DNA of 35,260 bases. It comes from Rhodothermales bacterium (GTDB lineage Bacteria; Bacteroidota; Rhodothermia; Rhodothermales; UBA10348). The stretch spans positions 1 through 35,260 of the forward strand of contig JAFMNH010000015.1 of NCBI GenBank assembly GCA_017859335.1, in the 5' to 3' direction. Positions 1,930-10,902 of this stretch are shown here, in pieces (within the stretch, counting starts at the first letter, position 1; every line of letters starts with the position of its first letter). The notes under the pieces were generated by a model. That model was given only the letters and a program-made list of their open reading frames with translations, was not told where the DNA came from and did no database searches. The translations under genes were made by a program, and so were the position numbers.

Positions 1930-2766
1930 ATGCGCATTGCAGTCTGGAACAATCCGGTCAATGAATCCCTGATTCTTGCATTGGAAGAGGCCTATCCGGG
2001 TGCTATCGACCGCCTTCCGCTGAAAGATGTCCTGCAGGCGGTTCTGGACAACCAAGCCGATGTGGCCCTCGTGCCCAGTGATCAGGCGCTTTCCAGTCAG
2101 GGTCAGGTGGATATACTGCCCGCCGTCGGTGTTTCTTCCTGGACCAACCCGTGGCTGTCCCTTGTCGTTGGAAATCAGTTGGGCGCGGCAACCATGGGGA
2201 TCATGCATGCTCCCGATGGGCGCTCCGGCGCGCTTCTGGCCGCCCTGGTCCTCAAGGAGCATTATAACACGGTCGTCGCCCTGCATGAGCAGCCTGCGCT
2301 ACCCGTCGGTCTGTCGGAGCATGCTTTAATCACCGTTCCACTTGATGAAGGGGATGACCTCGTTTCACCAGCTTCCGGTACGAGCGAAGGTGTGGCTCTG
2401 GATTTGGGTCAGGAGTGGGCCGAGATGGCTGGGTATCCGTTCGTCTGGTCGCTATTCGTGGGGCGAAAGGATGAAAACCACGACGATGCCATTCGACAGC
2501 TCCGTGATGTGGTCACGCAATTGGATCAGCATCGCGTGGCGCTGGAGCGCGCCTGGGACCTCGATGAGATTGGATCGGATTTCTTCCTGAACCATGTTCG
2601 GTTGGCCGTCGATGATCTGGCCATTGCCAGTCTGACACAGCTGTGCGATCATCTGTTCTATTACGGGGTCACTGACGAAGTCCTGCCGGTACAGTTTGTG
2701 ACGCTTCCTGCGGATGAAGATGCCGCCGTTCACCCCGACGATGCACCCGAATCGATTGATGGCTGA
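1930..2766 (+). CDS. MqnA/MqnD-family protein, divergent chorismate dehydratase-like
   Basis: The 278-residue product resembles the periplasmic-binding-protein fold of MqnA, which dehydrates chorismate in the futalosine route to menaquinone. Supporting segments are ADVALVPSDQAL (about residues 43-54), the RSGALLAALVLKEHY region near 97-111, and especially DLGQEWAEMAGYPFVWSLFV (about 159-178), close to the family's DLG-EW---TG-PFV-A-W block. The N-terminal motif is unusual: where MqnA proteins normally have a V-YLNS-PL-like stretch with a key Asn, this protein has RIAVWNNPVNESLILALE, with Asn residues shifted. Family membership is fairly secure; chorismate dehydratase activity is not. No other mqn gene is present in the window. 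The 3' end overlaps smpB by 8 bases. Confidence 0.75.
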   Translation: MRIAVWNNPVNESLILALEEAYPGAIDRLPLKDVLQAVLDNQADVALVPSDQALSSQGQVDILPAVGVSSWTNPWLSLVVGNQLGAATMGIMHAPDGRSGALLAALVLKEHYNTVVALHEQPALPVGLSEHALITVPLDEGDDLVSPASGTSEGVALDLGQEWAEMAGYPFVWSLFVGRKDENHDDAIRQLRDVVTQLDQHRVALERAWDLDEIGSDFFLNHVRLAVDDLAIASLTQLCDHLFYYGVTDEVLPVQFVTLPADEDAAVHPDDAPESIDG

Positions 2767-3226
2767 CGCTCACAAAATCGTAACGTCCAACCGGAAGGCA
2801 TCCCACGAATACCACATCGATGATCGGGTAGAGGCGGGGATGGTTTTGAAGGGTACCGAGGTGAAATCGGTCCGGCAGGGGAAGGTGAACCTGCAGGAGG
2901 CCTACTGTCAGGTGGAGGGTGGTGAAATGTGGCTGTATCAATGCCACATTGCTCCCTACAGCCATGGGAATATTGCCAATCATGACCCGGTGCGGCGCAG
3001 GAAGTTGCTTCTTCACAAGCGTGAAATCGAGCGTCTCGAAAAGGCCGCCGCGCAAAAAGGCTACACGATCGTTCCGCTGAAGGTGTATCTGCAACGGGGC
3101 CGGGTCAAGTTGGAAATCGGTCTGGGTAAAGGCAAAAAGCTGTACGATAAGCGAGCCGACATTGCAGCCAAGGATGTGAAGCGCAAGCTCAGCCGTGCCG
3201 ACGTACAGCGGGCACGGGAAGAGTGA
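2759..3226 (+). CDS. smpB: SsrA-binding protein SmpB
   Basis: SmpB binds tmRNA and delivers it to stalled ribosomes in trans-translation. The product from ATG 2759 has 155 residues, the usual length. It starts MADAHKIVTSNRKASHEYHI, which matches the family start (I--NRKA-H-Y-I). The core motifs GMVLKGTEVKSVRQGKVNL and LLLHKREIERL follow, then the basic tail GKGKKLYDKRADIAAKDVKR that becomes ordered on the ribosome. An in-frame upstream ATG at 2714 lies inside the preceding gene and gives no family sequence. The start codon overlaps the preceding gene's end in the arrangement ATGGCTGA, which suggests translational coupling. Confidence 0.97.
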   Translation: MADAHKIVTSNRKASHEYHIDDRVEAGMVLKGTEVKSVRQGKVNLQEAYCQVEGGEMWLYQCHIAPYSHGNIANHDPVRRRKLLLHKREIERLEKAAAQKGYTIVPLKVYLQRGRVKLEIGLGKGKKLYDKRADIAAKDVKRKLSRADVQRAREE

Positions 3227-3412
3227 GAGCTGCTGCTCCGGATCTGTTTGTGCCTGCCGCACGTTTGTGAGATGGCCGTGAGTCACGCGGTGCCTCAACC
3301 TGACCTGTCACCCCCATTGCTTGCCGTACGCCCCATGTCAGCGCCTACGCACCATTCCTCTCCAACAAGCTTGCATGTTGTGCATGGTTTGGGATTTGGT
3401 GACGTTAGAACG

Positions 3413-5662
3413 ATGTGGATCAGCGCATATCTGCTCATACTGCTGACGGCCGTCCTGCCGGTTTCCGCTCAGCAATCCATTGTACGGGGTACCGTGGTAG
3501 CCGAGAAAGATGGCGAGCCTCTGCAAGGTGTGAATGTGGCCCTGTATACCGGGGAATCGCTTGTCGCAGGCACGGCCTCCGGGTCGGACGGCATTTATGC
3601 CCTGGCTGATCTCCCGTCCGGTTCCTACACCCTGCGAGCCAGTTTCATCGGCTTCATGCCGTGGGAGCAGGAAATTGGCATTGGTGTGTCGGACAGGCGA
3701 ATCATCAACATCGTATTGATTGAGGGCGAGACCGAGCTGGAGGAAGTGGTCGTGGAAAGCGATTCTGATGCCGGCATGGCGCGTGTCCGCGCGGGTCAAA
3801 CGACCGTGCGTCCGGCAGACGTGGAGCGCATTCCTTCGCCTGATGTCTCAGGGGACCTGGTCAATTACCTGACCACTGTTCCTGGTATCGTATCCATCGG
3901 GGACAGAGGGGGGCAGCTTTTTATACGGGGTGGAGAGCCTTGGCAAAACCTCGTACTGCTCGATGGAATGTGGGTGTATCAGCCTTTTCACATCCTCGGA
4001 TTCTTTTCCTCCTTTCCGTCCGAGATCCTGCAGCAGGTTGATATTTATGCAGGTGGCTACACGAGTCAGTATGGCGGTCGTATCTCGTCGGTCATCGATG
4101 TCAAGAGTCGCAATGGGGACAAGCGAGACTACGCGGGAACCGCCTCCGTGGCGCCGTTCGTGTCTGGCTTTACCCTGGAGGGTCCGATTGCGGATGACGT
4201 GGTTTCTTTCCTCGTCTCCTATCGGGAGAGCGTGATTGATAAAGGAGCTGCCCGTATCGTCGATGACGAGTTGCCGTTCGCCTTCGATGACTTCTTTGCC
4301 AAGACCCACGCCTTCATCAATGCCAACACCCAGCTCTCGCTCTCGCTCTTGCGAACAAACGACCGTGGGTCGGTCTTTGAGGGGAATGATCTGGAAGAGC
4401 CGCAGTCCATTGCATGGGAGAATCGATCAGCCTCTGCCCGCTACCTCGTTTTTCCTCGTGCCTTTCCCATTATGGCTGAGTTCATCATCTCGGGGTCGCG
4501 TCTGACCTCTGAGCAGAGTGGGATTACCGAAGATGTTCGTTTCTCCAAGCTCTCGAGCGTGAACACGACGGTAAACGTCACCCATTTCCATCGCAACTCA
4601 GAGGTCAGATGGGGGCTTTTCGCCCGAACTCTCGAGTTGCAGAGCAGCCTTGACGGTTTGTATCAGGGCTTTTTTTACCGGAAGGAATATGCGACCGAGG
4701 TCGGAGCCTACCTCGAACCGGAATTCATGCTGCCCTTTGGATGGCAGGTTCGTGCGGGATTGCGAATCCATTCCTTTCCAAGTCAGGATTCCGGATTCCT
4801 CGAGCCCCGGTTTCGTGCTGTCAAGCAGCGTGAACGGGACGAATTCACTATCGCTGCCGGTACGTTCCATCAGGAAATTGTGGGTCTGACCGACCGTAGG
4901 GACGCTGCAGGTATATTCACGGCGTGGACGACGAGTACGTTCGACCAGGGCGTACCAGAGGCCGTTCATGCCATCATGGGGTATCGAAGGGCTCTCAGCA
5001 GGGACGTTGAGGCCAGTGTGGAAGTCTATGCCAAGCGGCTCAACAACCTCTTCATACCTGAGTGGACGGCCTATCCGAGGTTTACGACGCGCATCCAGCC
5101 GGCAGAGGGCAGGGTGTACGGTGCCGATATGCGATTGGAGTACACTCGAGGGGGCTTTTCCAGCTTCCTGACCTACGGTTTGTCCAATGTTCGTTACACG
5201 GCACAGCAGGATGCACTCGAGGTCTGGTATGGTAGCTCAGAGCTAAACTTCAGACCGCCCCATGACCGTCGTCATCAAGTCAACGCGGTAGTCTCATGGG
5301 ATACGGACCTACTTGATCTCGACATCCGTTGGCAATTCGGATCGGGGCTACCATTCAGTCGGGCGCTTGGATTCGATGGATTCATGATCGTTGACGGAAA
5401 CCTGGATGTCTTTGACGAGCCCGGCAGTCGTCGGGTCATCTACGAGCGGCCTTACAATGGCATCCTGCCGACCTACCATCGCTTGGACATAACGGTCGGA
5501 CGCGATGTGGACTTCGGCAACGGGATTCGTTTGAAGGCACTTGCTGGCGTAATAAACATGTACGACAGGCAGAATCTCTTCTACCTGGATGTTTTCACCT
5601 TGCGTCGAGTGGACCAGCTACCGTTCATTCCCACTCTCGGACTGAAACTGGAGTATGATTGA
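3413..5662 (+). CDS. TonB-dependent outer-membrane receptor with N-terminal carboxypeptidase-regulatory-like domain
   Basis: A 749-residue outer-membrane transporter of the TonB-dependent family; the substrate is unknown. From ATG 3413 it begins with a signal peptide (MWISAYLLILLTAVLPVSA, predicted cleavage after Ala19). Next is a CarboxypepD_reg-like beta-sandwich of about residues 23-105, with RGTVVAEKDGEPLQGVNV and DLPSGSYTLRASFIGF. EVVVES follows, possibly a degenerate TonB contact. The plug domain carries LTTVPGIVSIGDRGGQLFIR, LVLLDGMWVYQPFH and IYAGGYTSQYGGRISSVIDV. The rest is beta-barrel rich in aromatic, alternating strands and ends in LGLKLEYD. The frame is open 55 codons further upstream to 3248, but that part lacks secretion features and precedes the signal peptide, so it is not included. 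The stop overlaps the next start (TGATG). Confidence 0.93.
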   Translation: MWISAYLLILLTAVLPVSAQQSIVRGTVVAEKDGEPLQGVNVALYTGESLVAGTASGSDGIYALADLPSGSYTLRASFIGFMPWEQEIGIGVSDRRIINIVLIEGETELEEVVVESDSDAGMARVRAGQTTVRPADVERIPSPDVSGDLVNYLTTVPGIVSIGDRGGQLFIRGGEPWQNLVLLDGMWVYQPFHILGFFSSFPSEILQQVDIYAGGYTSQYGGRISSVIDVKSRNGDKRDYAGTASVAPFVSGFTLEGPIADDVVSFLVSYRESVIDKGAARIVDDELPFAFDDFFAKTHAFINANTQLSLSLLRTNDRGSVFEGNDLEEPQSIAWENRSASARYLVFPRAFPIMAEFIISGSRLTSEQSGITEDVRFSKLSSVNTTVNVTHFHRNSEVRWGLFARTLELQSSLDGLYQGFFYRKEYATEVGAYLEPEFMLPFGWQVRAGLRIHSFPSQDSGFLEPRFRAVKQRERDEFTIAAGTFHQEIVGLTDRRDAAGIFTAWTTSTFDQGVPEAVHAIMGYRRALSRDVEASVEVYAKRLNNLFIPEWTAYPRFTTRIQPAEGRVYGADMRLEYTRGGFSSFLTYGLSNVRYTAQQDALEVWYGSSELNFRPPHDRRHQVNAVVSWDTDLLDLDIRWQFGSGLPFSRALGFDGFMIVDGNLDVFDEPGSRRVIYERPYNGILPTYHRLDITVGRDVDFGNGIRLKALAGVINMYDRQNLFYLDVFTLRRVDQLPFIPTLGLKLEYD

Positions 5663-6567
5663 TGGCTGAATCCGCAACCAGTTTTCATTTTCGAGGGCTT
5701 CTCGCCGTTTGGCTCGTCCTGTTGTCATGGACCGCCCTCGGCTGCGAGGAAACCGTCGACCCCGTGCTCGAGACCGATGAAGTATTCTCGTTGTACGGAT
5801 TTCTGAATCCATCATCGGAGCGACAGGCGATCCGGGTGTTCTCCATTGACGGTACCTTGGAGCATACCCGCCCTGAGCCCATGGACGCGGTGGTTCGAAC
5901 CCGTAATCATGCAAGCGGGGAGGAAGTGGTCTGGAGGGATTCCATCGTCACCTACGACAATCGAACGGTCGGGCATGTCTTCTATGCTGATTTCAGAGCG
6001 GACCATGGCACCCGCTATACGCTATCGGCCACGCGCTCGGATGGTCGGGAAACAACGGTATCAATAGAGACACCGCCGGACGGTATCGTAGCCATCGATA
6101 CCATACTCTCGGCTCGCAGCTCCGTTATTGTCGACCTTATCTGGTCGAACGTACCCAGGGTCATTCAGGCCGAGGCCAGCTACGTTGTTCGCGTGCCGTT
6201 TCCCGATGGAAGCGACACGACAACCGTTCAGGTTAATATTCAGAGCGGTCGTGTAGAGCAAAACAGCGATGGTACCTGGCGCGTATCTATCCTTCCTTCG
6301 GCTGATATTGCGGCCGTGTTCTCTGCCTTGCAGATCCAGCCCGGCGTGACGCCCGTCTACCTGGACAAGATCATAGTCAGCGCGTTCGTGACGTCGAGCG
6401 ACTGGACCAGCGCAGCGGGCGTGTCCGATCCGGAGCTGCTGGTTCAGCCGGGTACCTTCTCCAACGTCGAGAACGGATTCGGCTTCGTGGGTGGAGGATA
6501 TTTCGACCGATTTGAACTTAAACTTGATGATTCCGCGGCACGAAATGCGGGATTCTCGGTAGACTGA
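5662..6567 (+). CDS. DUF4249-like lipoprotein
   Basis: A 301-residue exported protein. The N-terminus (residues 1-28) is a lipoprotein signal: a hydrophobic stretch LLAVWLVLLSWTALGC with the lipobox Cys at residue 28. The mature part continues EETVDPVLETDEVFSLYGFL and contains beta-rich segments such as HGTRYTLSATRSDGRETTVS. This pattern, and the position directly after a TonB-dependent receptor, match DUF4249 proteins of Bacteroidota, whose function is unknown. ATG 5662 shares its A with the receptor's TGA stop, so the two are translationally coupled and probably act together at the outer membrane. The family call is by pattern only and is less certain than the lipoprotein call. Confidence 0.75.
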   Translation: MAESATSFHFRGLLAVWLVLLSWTALGCEETVDPVLETDEVFSLYGFLNPSSERQAIRVFSIDGTLEHTRPEPMDAVVRTRNHASGEEVVWRDSIVTYDNRTVGHVFYADFRADHGTRYTLSATRSDGRETTVSIETPPDGIVAIDTILSARSSVIVDLIWSNVPRVIQAEASYVVRVPFPDGSDTTTVQVNIQSGRVEQNSDGTWRVSILPSADIAAVFSALQIQPGVTPVYLDKIIVSAFVTSSDWTSAAGVSDPELLVQPGTFSNVENGFGFVGGGYFDRFELKLDDSAARNAGFSVD

Positions 6568-6609
6568 CTTGTCCCCTCATTCCGGACCTACATATACCAC
6601 CTCATCGTG

Positions 6610-9084
6610 ATGACTCCATCTCGTTTTTTTGCAGTGAAAGCAGGCGGATGCCTTGGCTGGGAGCGGATGCTATCCCTGGCCCTGGTATCCATGGTGTCCC
6701 TGGTGCTTGTCATGCCGCTCTCGGCGCAGCAGACCGATCCCATGACGGACGGTATTCTCGCATTCCGCGCTGGAGAGCATGCCTCTGCTGTTGCCTCTTT
6801 CAACCGGGCGTTGAAGGAGGATCCTGCCAATGCCGAGGCCCACTTTCTGTTGGCTCGACTCTACTGGGAGACGGATCTTCGGGATGTCAAGGAGGCTGGC
6901 CGTCACTTGGAGTCTGCGCTGGCCATCGACCCGGGAAACGTTCAATACATGGTAGCGCTGTTGCAGCAACTGCGCGCGGATTCGCAGCTGTTCATCATTG
7001 ACCAATCCAGGGAAGCCCGTCGTCGCCGCCTGGCAATGGATATTCTGGAGAGGGACAGTACGAACTCGTTTGCCAATGAAGAGCTCGGCGATACCTATAT
7101 CCGGGACTTTTGGCGATATCGTAATGCTCTTATGTATCCGGCACTCGACTTTCTGCGGGCAGAATACAGGGCACGAACGGAGTACGATCCCATGGCCGGA
7201 TATCTGGTTGACCAGGCCAACCGGTTCGATCAGGCGAATGGCGGCATAACGGAGTCCGATGTACCCCAGACGTTGGCTCAGGCCGGACCGACCTGGAATC
7301 CCAACCAGGTATTCATGGCAGATGAGTTCGATGTGGAGGCCTTGAAAAATCAGGGCGTCCCGGTTCTCGACCTCTCTGGCCGCGCCCAAGTAGCCTATGA
7401 GAGGGCCATATCCCACCTGAATACGGCCCTGGAGGCCGATCCGCGTCAGCGATCCGTGTATGATCACCTCATGGAAATCTACGCGCTAAAGGGGGAGTAT
7501 GGCGAGGCATTGAACATGCTGGCCCAGATGTACATTTTCTTTCCTGAGGACCCAGAGCTTTGGACCTATCTGGGGTACGCGCATTACCATTCGGGCAACA
7601 TGGAGGCGGCCTCCAAGTCCTTTGAATCGGCCTTCCGCTTCATGGATGAGGAGTCGGCCTACGCCTACAACCAGATCGAGAATATTCTTCCGAAGGACGA
7701 GCTTGAGGCCTATCGGGCGGATGAGGCAGGCTACACGTCGCGTTTTTGGATGTCGAAGGACCCACGGTACCTGACCTCCTACAACGAGCGCAAAATGGAG
7801 CACTACGCGCGTCTTACCTACGCCGACCTGTTGTACGGCTCCCCGCAGTTGGGCATCAAGGGATGGAACACGGAGCGGGGTAATATCCTGGTTCGCTATG
7901 GCATCCCGAATGGTGATGTGGTCATCATCCCCCGCTCAGGCAGCGGTGTGATGATGGGAACGCCAGACCGGGGCAACTCGCTCGAGGATCTCGACGGCAA
8001 TGTGGGTGTGGCGCTCAATGTGGGACGTTATGGCTCTGGATGGGATATGTTCGAGGAGGCAAACACCTATAATATATGGGATTACGGGGAGTTCAAATTT
8101 GTCTTTGAGGACCCCTTCCGTAATGGCGAGTTCAGACTGTACAGCCCATCGGCTTCGGACATATCTGACGGTGCGGTGGCTTACATCAATGATTATGTGA
8201 TCAAGGCAGCGGAAACCATCAGGGAGACCCCGGAGCGTTACGAGTACGAAGCGCCCGGCCGCCAGATAGAACTCCCGTATGCTGTTGCTGCATTCAAGGG
8301 GAGCGATGGTTCGACTGACCTGTATGTGAATTACGCTATCCCGATCACGGATGCCTACAGCCCGGACGATGAGTTCATCAACATCACGGCCAACGCAGGA
8401 ACGTTCGTAGTGGCGGACAACCGGGATATCCTGGTGGAGCGCCGTCGCACGATCTATGGTCTGCCGACCGCTCAGATCGTACGGTTCGACGAATCCAATC
8501 TATGGGTGGATACTGAGCGCATGAGCACGCCTCCCGGGCGGCATGAGGTATCGGTGGAGTTCGAAACGGCCGGGGGTGGCACGGTGGCCGTGCAGCGTCG
8601 TGCCGTGGATGTGCCGGACTTCTCCGGCACCACATTGGCCATGTCAGATATTCTGCTCTCCTATCGGATCGAGGAGAGTTTCGACGGAAAACCAGTCAGT
8701 GGATCAGATATCCTGCGTAAGGGCCTGTCCATCCAGCCTGCGCCTTGGACCGTGTACGGCACGGATCAACCGATATACATCTATTTCGAGGTCTACAACC
8801 TGACCCAGGATGCCGAGGGTATGTCCCGCTACGAAGTGGAAGCAGAACTGACGCCCCGGGAAAGTGGCAGCGGCGTAGGCCGGGCCATTCGAAACCTGTT
8901 CGGAGGCGGCGGTCAGGGCGTATCCACCGGTGTGCCCATCAATGTCGAGGCCACAGAGGACGGGCAGTACCTGATTCTGGATGCGGAAAACCTGGAAACG
9001 GGCCTTTACACCTTGAGGGTCACGATTACCGATCAGGTCACCGGTCGGGACGTGGACATGTCCAAGGACCTGTTTCTGGAATAA
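6610..9084 (+). CDS. Exported TPR protein with GWxTD domain
   Basis: An 824-residue protein. A signal-peptide-like hydrophobic stretch (MLSLALVSMVSLVLVMPLSA, about residues 19-38) predicts export. TPR-like helices follow at about 45-115 (AFRAGEHASAVASFNRALKE, HLESALAIDPGNV) and again at about 255-345 (ALEADPRQRSVYDHLMEIYA, LGYAHYHSGNMEAASKSF). The GWxTD motif appears as GWNTERGNILVRYGIPNGD from Gly418, with Glu in place of the usual Asp. The C-terminal third is beta-rich and ends TLRVTITDQVTGRDVDMSKD. GWxTD proteins occur in Bacteroidota, Acidobacteriota and relatives and have no established function. ATG 6610 was preferred over the adjacent GTG 6607. The gene lies 42 bases after the DUF4249-like gene and probably belongs to the same transcript. 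Confidence 0.87.
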   Translation: MTPSRFFAVKAGGCLGWERMLSLALVSMVSLVLVMPLSAQQTDPMTDGILAFRAGEHASAVASFNRALKEDPANAEAHFLLARLYWETDLRDVKEAGRHLESALAIDPGNVQYMVALLQQLRADSQLFIIDQSREARRRRLAMDILERDSTNSFANEELGDTYIRDFWRYRNALMYPALDFLRAEYRARTEYDPMAGYLVDQANRFDQANGGITESDVPQTLAQAGPTWNPNQVFMADEFDVEALKNQGVPVLDLSGRAQVAYERAISHLNTALEADPRQRSVYDHLMEIYALKGEYGEALNMLAQMYIFFPEDPELWTYLGYAHYHSGNMEAASKSFESAFRFMDEESAYAYNQIENILPKDELEAYRADEAGYTSRFWMSKDPRYLTSYNERKMEHYARLTYADLLYGSPQLGIKGWNTERGNILVRYGIPNGDVVIIPRSGSGVMMGTPDRGNSLEDLDGNVGVALNVGRYGSGWDMFEEANTYNIWDYGEFKFVFEDPFRNGEFRLYSPSASDISDGAVAYINDYVIKAAETIRETPERYEYEAPGRQIELPYAVAAFKGSDGSTDLYVNYAIPITDAYSPDDEFINITANAGTFVVADNRDILVERRRTIYGLPTAQIVRFDESNLWVDTERMSTPPGRHEVSVEFETAGGGTVAVQRRAVDVPDFSGTTLAMSDILLSYRIEESFDGKPVSGSDILRKGLSIQPAPWTVYGTDQPIYIYFEVYNLTQDAEGMSRYEVEAELTPRESGSGVGRAIRNLFGGGGQGVSTGVPINVEATEDGQYLILDAENLETGLYTLRVTITDQVTGRDVDMSKDLFLE

Positions 9085-9164: not shown

Positions 9165-9725
9165 TCAGGTAGTGTGGCCTTGCGTGGCTCCTGGACCACC
9201 TTTGCCGGCTGCTGTTGCCGCCACGGTGTCATCCATGGCGCTGACCAGCGTTTCCAGCGATGTCTTGTACGCTGACAGGGATTCACGCAGCGCAGGATCG
9301 GAGAGGCTCAGGATCTGAACAGCCAACAGTGCGGCATTCTTGGCACCTCCGATGGCCACTGTCGCCACGGGCACCCCACCGGGCATCTGGACGATGGAAA
9401 GGAGCGAATCGAGGCCTTTCATGTGCCGAGTGGGCACCGGTACTCCGATGACCGGGACAGTTGTTGAGGCAGCCAGCATGCCCGGAAGGTGTGCGGCGCC
9501 GCCAGCACCGGCTATGATAACGCCAATCCCGCGATCCACAGCCTCCTCCGCATACGTAGTCATGGCCTTCGGCGTGCGATGGGCACTCAGGACCCGTGCT
9601 TCAAAGGGTACCCCGAATTCTGCCAGGATATCCGCAGCGTCCTCCATGATTGGCCAATCTGATTGACTACCCATGGCAATGCCAACGATGGGCGTAGGCG
9701 AGGAAGGTGAGGCCGTTGATGACAT
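9165..9725 (-). CDS. purE: N5-carboxyaminoimidazole ribonucleotide mutase (class I PurE)
   Basis: PurE converts N5-CAIR to CAIR in purine biosynthesis. The 186-residue product begins [20 protein letters not shown] and carries the class I motifs GSQSDWPIM (residues 19-27), LSAHRTP with His49, [14 protein letters not shown] and [20 protein letters not shown], followed by [17 protein letters not shown]. The usual core is about 160 residues; here there is a short N-terminal extension and a Gly/Thr/His-rich tail. An upstream in-frame ATG at 9773 would overlap purK, so 9725 is preferred. It follows purK by 31 bases on the same strand, and the two catalyse successive steps, so they should be cotranscribed. 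It ends 80 bases from the convergent GWxTD gene; no clear terminator was seen between them. Confidence 0.95.
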
Positions 9726-9756
9726 GTTCGCTTCGTTCTGATGATGATGGACAGGG

Positions 9757-10902
9757 TTACAACTGGACGGCATGGGCTGCCGCCTCAGCTTCGGCCCGCA
9801 GCGTGTCCAAGTTGGATCCGGTAATGGTTACGTGTCCCATCTTGCGTTTGGGACGGGCCTCCTCCTTGCCATACACATGCAAGCCGGCCTGAGTGTGCGA
9901 CAAGGCCTCCACGAGTCCGTCAGTCCGGACGGATCCTGCACGGTGACCCAGTATGTTGATCATGACCGCTGCCGGCGTTCGCATCTCGGGACTTCCCAGT
10001 GGCAGGTCCAGGATCGAGCGTGCATGGTTTTCGAATTGGGAAGAAAAGCAGGCCTCGATCGTGTAGTGCCCGGTATTGTGGGGGCGGGGAGCCAATTCGT
10101 TGAGAAGGATACTGCCGTCCTCAAGCTCGAAGAACTCCACACCGAGCACACCGACCAGATTCACGGCTGAGGCTGCCTGTAAAGCGGCTTCCCGGGCGGC
10201 TGCTGCTGTTTCGGGGCGAATGCGTGCCGGAGCCATCACGGCATGACAGCGATGGTCCCTCTGCTCAGTTTCCACTACAGGATACACCACGGACTCGCCC
10301 TGCGGTCTGCGGGCCACCATGACAGCCAGTTCCCGAACGAAAGGCACGAAGGCTTCCATTAGAAGTCCTTCATTGGATGCCAGCTCGTCCCACGCCTTTT
10401 CCAGGTCGGAAACGGAGGTAACAGTGGCATTGCCATATCCGTCGTAGGATCCCTCAAATTTCTTTGCTACGGCCTTTCCACCGAAGACGGTAAGGGCAGC
10501 CCGTGCCTCCTGGAAAGAGGAGCACGCCAGATAAGCACCCACAGGGATGCCCGCTTCCTGGATGGCATCCTTTTGACGACCCTTGTGCCGGATGGTCAGG
10601 AGGGTGCTGGAAGCTGGCCACACCGGTATCCTTCCGTTACTGACTTTTTCCGCAACCTCTGCCGGTGCCCATTCACTTTCCACCGTGATGACATCGCAGC
10701 CGTCGATGAACGCTTCCATCACAGCTTCATCCGTCCAATCGCCAACGACGGCCTGTCCCAAGGGAGCAACCGACCCGGATGGGGAGGGAGACAGGGTCTT
10801 GATATGAATACCCATGCGTATGGCGGCCAGCGCGGTCATTCGACCGAGCTGGCCGCCACCGAGGATACCTATGGTCGGAAAACGGGCGTTGGAATCGGAC
10901 AT
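9757..10902 (-). CDS. purK: N5-carboxyaminoimidazole ribonucleotide synthase PurK
   Basis: PurK carboxylates AIR with bicarbonate and ATP to give N5-CAIR, the substrate of PurE. The 381-residue product has the pre-ATP-grasp Rossmann start [18 protein letters not shown] (residues 10-27). The ATP-grasp core has [20 protein letters not shown] and [20 protein letters not shown]. The metal/ATP site is in [20 protein letters not shown], followed by [19 protein letters not shown]. The C-terminal PurK domain ends with [20 protein letters not shown]. Length and motif order are normal. It begins 14 bases after the ftsK stop and precedes purE, as part of a tightly spaced minus-strand run. Confidence 0.96.

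Follow-up and report, generated by a model that had tools for sequence, protein, structure and literature searches.

A TonB-dependent receptor and a DUF4249 lipoprotein inherited in one co-directional block with an exported TPR-GWxTD protein in Rhodothermales

The SusCD glycan importers of Bacteroidota combine a receptor bearing a carboxypeptidase-regulatory N-domain with a lipoprotein encoded by a partner gene. In the XusAB xenosiderophore system, whose complex has been solved, a surface lipoprotein lies on top of the TonB-dependent transporter like a lid (PMC13142918; PDB 9GBC). According to the accessible part of another report, BT2172 and BT2173 of Bacteroides thetaiotaomicron, a TonB-dependent transporter and a DUF4249 protein, act together, disruption of either having similar consequences, and the transporter subfamily almost always adjoins a DUF4249 gene in dozens of genera (PMC11003636). 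Here a pair of this kind was analyzed in a window of 35,260 nucleotides, which is the whole contig C149 of a Rhodothermales draft genome (G000; 2.6 Mb, 97% complete). Its closest named relatives are MAGs under the labels Rhodothermales, Rhodothermia, Rhodothermaceae or Bacteroidetes/Bacteroidota, with a few called only 'bacterium'.

Three genes on the forward strand make up the block at 3413-9084. The TonB-dependent receptor gene (749 aa; 3413..5662) runs from an ATG at 3413 to a TGA at 5660-5662, and its stop overlaps by one base (TGATG) the ATG at 5662-5664 of the DUF4249 lipoprotein gene (301 aa; 5662..6567), whose stop ends at 6567. After a gap of 42 bases (6568..6609) follows the gene of an exported GWxTD protein, here GWxTD-B (824 aa; 6610..9084), with an ATG at 6610 and a stop at 9084; a GTG at 6607 is a possible alternative start. 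An earlier note on this DNA had described a co-directional trio with this overlap and gap, export signals on all three products and the motif variant GWNTE. The coordinates agree, inspection by eye bears out the signal peptides and a lipobox (LGC), and the motif occupies residues 418-422 of GWxTD-B. On the 5′ side lie TrmD-, MqnA-like and SmpB genes, the last (2714..3226, forward strand; PF01668, 208 bits) separated from the block by a spacer of 186 bases (3227..3412). On the 3′ side PurE (9165..9773, reverse strand; PF00731, 221 bits), PurK and FtsK lie on the opposite strand. SmpB and the convergent PurE mark the boundaries of the block and are context rather than members. Purifying selection is apparent on all three genes (dN 0.06-0.30 against relatives, with dS >1.7 or saturated). 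Neither RNA families nor tRNAs were found in the window.

The receptor carries an N-terminal carboxypeptidase-regulatory-like domain (PF13715, CarbopepD_reg_2, 59.2 bits, over cut-off) and a plug (PF07715, 37.8 bits against a cut-off of 23.9), which places it among the TonB-dependent receptors. No barrel family was reported at E <= 0.1 in a family search of its sequence. With 53.8 bits against TIGR04056 (cut-off 368.25), it falls outside the SusC/RagA family. Its best sequence match among solved structures is 9gbc_A (XusA), a weak match of the N-terminal residues 24-221. The directly adjoining DUF4249 protein matches PF14054 with 37.4 bits (cut-off 28.5) over residues 33-186, and completes a receptor-DUF4249 pair. 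Its lipobox Cys28 is invariant in an alignment of 21 orthologues and is followed in the window by EETVDP, of which three of six residues are acidic. At least two acidic residues among the six after the cysteine, described for surface-exposed Bacteroidota lipoproteins in the part of the source available (PMC12578637), are present in all 21. The protein is modelled as two Ig-like beta-sandwich domains (pLDDT 84.3, pTM 0.73). Fold searches returned generic two-domain Ig-like matches only (best VIA Z 7.6), indicating no function, and a sequence search of solved structures gave no match. Clustering of 22 loci with other DUF4249 receptors for recurrent neighbours provided no clue to a substrate. Two receptor-DUF4249 pairs stand in tandem at a locus elsewhere in the window's genome (L166:6129-12572; G000:C124), and likewise at a locus of a genus mate (L168:926-7345; G002:C270).

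GWxTD-B consists of TPR/helical regions (residues ~43-172 and ~256-354), a GWxTD domain (~350-520) and two Ig-like domains (~556-824). It belongs to the NCBIfam family TIGR04514 (50.3 bits, cut-off 28, residues 356-435) and lies outside Pfam PF20094, for which it was unreported at E <= 0.1; three short forms of the family score 72.7-88.2 bits there. The structural model (pLDDT 69.3, pTM 0.39) shows the TPR blocks and two beta-sandwich domains, the GWxTD region being of low confidence. Its fold matches, generic TPR proteins (VIA Z up to 19.7) and tandem domains of RbmA (Foldseek), indicate no function. A profile comparison with nine short sequences showed two homologies: the C-terminal Ig-like pair of GWxTD-B matched the N-terminal pair of the short forms (98.1%, E 1.1e-13), and the GWxTD regions of the two forms, C-terminal in the short one, matched each other (97.6%, E 2.9e-12); these E-values are for one comparison, and five controls gave <=0.4%. 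The order of the modules is thus swapped, TPR-GWxTD-Ig-Ig in GWxTD-B and Ig-Ig-GWxTD without TPR in the short form. The swap shows that the GWxTD domain and the Ig-like pair move together as one unit.

The domain was found in 228 of 394 Bacteroidota genomes sampled across the phylum, over half, yet the open literature searched, outside which most subscription papers lie, contains no mention of 'GWxTD', and 'DUF4249' appears there in the paper on BT2172 and BT2173 alone. The GWxTD-B form is narrower: at E <= 1e-40 its profile matches 30 of the 394 genomes, of which 28 belong to this order and two to family f16 within its class, a few of the matches spanning only part of the profile. Several other members deserve mention. 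The window's genome has a short GWxTD gene beside an AsnS-like gene (G000:C12:754-2220) and another between Fmt-like and FtsY-like genes (G000:C94; L078:8998-10542), both aligning with the phylum-wide short form. In what resembles a haem-biosynthesis cluster, a ferrochelatase-like gene is followed after about 70 bases by a long paralogue (L086:9230-11380; G013:C254), a single case with names given by eye. In G050:C126:3091-8755, four successive matches, with open frames of 416-477 aa, are similar to the Ig-like portion of GWxTD-B and apparently form a tandem array. The names RimM, RplS, RimO, HemH, FtsY, Fmt, AsnS and PfkB were all assigned by eye.

To follow the block in relatives, loci were fetched and their genes mapped by reference BLAST. 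A GWxTD protein search found some match in 58 of 60 relatives. GWxTD-B is present in 26 of the 27 genomes of the window's family, the one without it being 70% complete, and the receptor-DUF4249 pair is its immediate 5′ neighbour in 22 of the 26 and also in G047, a genome of another family; G010 is counted among the 22 by DUF4249 alone, as its contig ends there. The full order is GWxTD-A, receptor, DUF4249, GWxTD-B, between SmpB and PurE, where GWxTD-A is a second long GWxTD gene 5′ of the receptor, 23-28% identical to GWxTD-B. Wherever a pair-bearing locus extends far enough to include SmpB, that gene precedes the block. The block itself is thus real and inherited, and the proposal that the pair and the GWxTD gene are conserved neighbours is borne out; that they would never adjoin in related genomes, which the earlier note had named as one refutation, is contradicted by 23 genomes. 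Nevertheless, MqnA-like, SmpB, PurE, PurK and FtsK genes hold their positions around the block nearly as faithfully as the pair does, and because of this conserved adjacency alone is weak evidence for a functional tie. The conserved adjacency lies within a region that rearranges slowly.

GWxTD-B also occurs widely without the pair. Among 47 fetched GWxTD-B loci the pair is found in 23 and GWxTD-A in 20; the other 24 are without the pair, and four of these lack SmpB in the sequence retrieved and show their upstream side only in part. Among the matches listed from 114 genomes of the order, GWxTD-B occurs in 69 and an orthologue of the pair in 23. The top 23 DUF4249 orthologues by profile search all adjoin a GWxTD-B gene; the profile was built from GWxTD-B neighbours, which biases the ranking toward adjacent members, and the matches listed reach E about 5e-59, well past the weakest adjacent match (4.7e-94). 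Free of this bias is a tree of 43 receptors, in which 20 adjacent receptors form one clade (SH-aLRT 100) with the 23 others outside; it took adjacent receptors >450 aa, three of the 23 genomes being omitted for a receptor that is short or off the contig. The 20 non-adjacent receptor-DUF4249 pairs fetched all have the receptor gene immediately 5′ of DUF4249, and the 4-13 kb retrieved for each contain no GWxTD gene. Conversely, BLAST gave no match to the window's receptor or DUF4249 protein at 30 GWxTD loci elsewhere with 1.5-kb flanks or at 20 GWxTD loci of 10-13 kb, a search that may miss distant receptors. At two loci, L206 and L210, an ORF (641 and 629 aa) on the other strand a few genes off looks like a TonB receptor by eye and was uncaught by BLAST. 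In other families a gene of 403 aa separates SmpB from the GWxTD genes; considered as an envelope partner, it proved to encode tyrosyl-tRNA synthetase.

Mapped onto a GWxTD-B tree of 47 proteins, presence of the pair requires three changes. These may be read as one gain before the split of the window's family and family f11 (clade support 96), followed by two losses of the pair, in G007/G012/G013/G018 and in G036. Both this tree and that of the receptors are quick trees without bootstrap. GWxTD-B is older than its joining to the pair, and the majority of genomes carrying it lack the pair.

The spacer at 3227..3412 is the site where most family members carry GWxTD-A. Sixteen pair-bearing loci of the family include SmpB on their contig, and 13 of them have the gene. 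The three without it are the window (G000), its genus mate G001 and G014, all of which keep the pair and GWxTD-B. G001 retains, between its SmpB and receptor genes, a GWxTD-A remnant of 25 residues with 64% identity. In the window's spacer no significant match or remnant was detected, and a search of the window genome for GWxTD-A found none elsewhere, its matches being GWxTD-B itself and, weakly, a short GWxTD gene. The frequency of GWxTD-A at this site, the remnant in G001 and the absence in the window together lead us to read the three genes as the remainder of a four-gene block from which GWxTD-A was evidently lost. The genes of the three-gene set are as they had been described, with a fourth overlooked. 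In G008 (L044:12618-14522), GWxTD-A is split across two frames by a frameshift or an assembly error.

Gaps are short, 15-139 bases in 22 genomes and 205 in G047, with starts estimated from the alignment, and in genus g3 (G016, G023) the GWxTD-A stop overlaps the receptor start. Because the genes run in one direction, lie close together and, in one genus, overlap at the GWxTD-A/receptor junction, shared transcription is likely. Judged from spacing and direction, the block is probably co-transcribed; a separate promoter could lie in the gaps of >100 bases that several genomes have. Promoter and terminator scans were not above shuffled expectation and hence uninformative, no such site being listed within 6568..6609. 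The Bacteroidota-type promoter motif TAnnTTTG was found in none of 16 regions 5′ of the block (0.5 expected), once in 14 GWxTD-A/receptor gaps (0.2 expected) and twice in 23 DUF4249/GWxTD-B gaps (0.9 expected). Evolutionary rates of the receptor correlate with those of GWxTD-B at 0.95, against 0.96 for FtsK and 0.95 for the MqnA-like gene, none above background; after three housekeeping distances were regressed out, the values are 0.72, 0.82 and 0.76. Co-expression of the block genes is likely, and a dedicated role of GWxTD-B is unproven.

How the GWxTD protein relates to the receptor can be explained in different ways. The earlier note saw a dedicated uptake or assembly system of three, or now four, parts in which the GWxTD proteins would be obligate for the receptor. 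The pair and GWxTD-B do occur together in 22 of the 26 family genomes having GWxTD-B, the GWxTD-A stop does overlap the receptor start in G016 and G023, and no family locus retains GWxTD-A without the pair. Against such a system, the pair is missing from 24 of 47 GWxTD-B loci, no GWxTD gene lies in the sequence fetched for any of the 20 non-adjacent pairs, and GWxTD-A was lost in G000, G001 and G014 although the pair and GWxTD-B remain. An obligate system is distinctly improbable, and the evidence does not support GWxTD-B, older, mostly pairless and flanked by genes nearly as faithful, as its dedicated third part. What survives of the proposed system is the conserved adjacency, with its short gaps and the overlap in g3. 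At the other extreme, GWxTD-B could be unrelated to the receptor and the genes merely neighbours in a slowly rearranging region. The constancy of MqnA-like, SmpB, PurE, PurK and FtsK and the background rate correlation agree with this, as does the housekeeping setting of GWxTD genes elsewhere. That the pair came to lie between two GWxTD genes, co-directional and closely spaced with them and in one genus overlapping GWxTD-A, speaks against it, and we regard mere proximity as rather unlikely.

We consider it moderately probable that an inherited co-directional block joins an uptake pair of known kind to an independent GWxTD scaffold that is auxiliary, not obligate, to the receptor. By analogy with the known kind of pair, the receptor and DUF4249 protein would form a TonB-driven uptake pair, in which the surface lipoprotein catches the substrate as a partner or lid on the barrel, a role modelled on known Bacteroidota receptor-lipoprotein pairs. 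GWxTD-B would be an older exported TPR-GWxTD-Ig-Ig protein, presumably in the periplasm or at the outer membrane, acting as a scaffold or assembly factor independently of the pair. In an ancestor common to the window's family and a related family, the pair may have become placed between GWxTD-A and GWxTD-B. The outcome would be one co-directional block of four genes, probably co-transcribed, of which the window keeps three. Co-expression may then let GWxTD-B serve the receptor complex in an auxiliary way, in assembly, anchoring or periplasmic hand-over of the substrate. Direct contact of GWxTD-B with the receptor is doubtful, if a real possibility. A pair embedded between two GWxTD genes offers a concrete, testable partner hypothesis for the GWxTD family.

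A second lead comes from short GWxTD genes. In 12 of the 20 best-scoring phylum loci fetched (L199-L218), the gene is followed by a co-directional Omp85-type gene, directly in eight and with one gene between in four (for example, L213:5314-8428); Pfam confirmed Omp85 and POTRA domains in all three that were scanned. A RimO-like gene lies upstream of the short GWxTD gene in 15 of the 20 loci and other housekeeping genes are as constant, so this neighbourhood is also a conserved housekeeping region. The adjacency is a lead toward a role of GWxTD proteins in the service of outer-membrane barrels, and falls short of proof. It is an unlikely extension that GWxTD proteins are Bacteroidota periplasmic partners of outer-membrane beta-barrels, whose module-swapped Rhodothermales TPR form joined a TonB receptor and DUF4249 lid as a four-part receptor-scaffold machine, with the window carrying a three-part descendant.

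Compared with the described systems, the locus resembles BT2172/BT2173 in that a receptor gene adjoins a DUF4249 gene; the two are likened by description, not sequence, and the accessible part of that report mentions no GWxTD or TPR neighbour and no substrate (PMC11003636). With SusCD it shares a receptor having a carboxypeptidase-regulatory N-domain and a lipoprotein partner gene, but the receptor scores 53.8 against the SusC/RagA cut-off of 368 and the partner is a DUF4249 protein, not of the SusD family. XusAB, as far as its available description goes, likewise combines a receptor with a surface lipoprotein, and XusA is the best solved-structure match of the window's receptor (E 7e-4). However, XusB is a DUF4374 beta-propeller, whereas the model of the window's DUF4249 protein shows two Ig-like sandwiches, and the third gene of XusAB encodes a PepSY inner-membrane protein where the window has GWxTD-B. 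The short GWxTD proteins (TIGR04514, PF20094) share with GWxTD-B the GWxTD domain and the Ig-like pair, which they arrange as Ig-Ig-GWxTD without TPR, in contrast to the TPR-GWxTD-Ig-Ig of the protein inherited beside the receptor.
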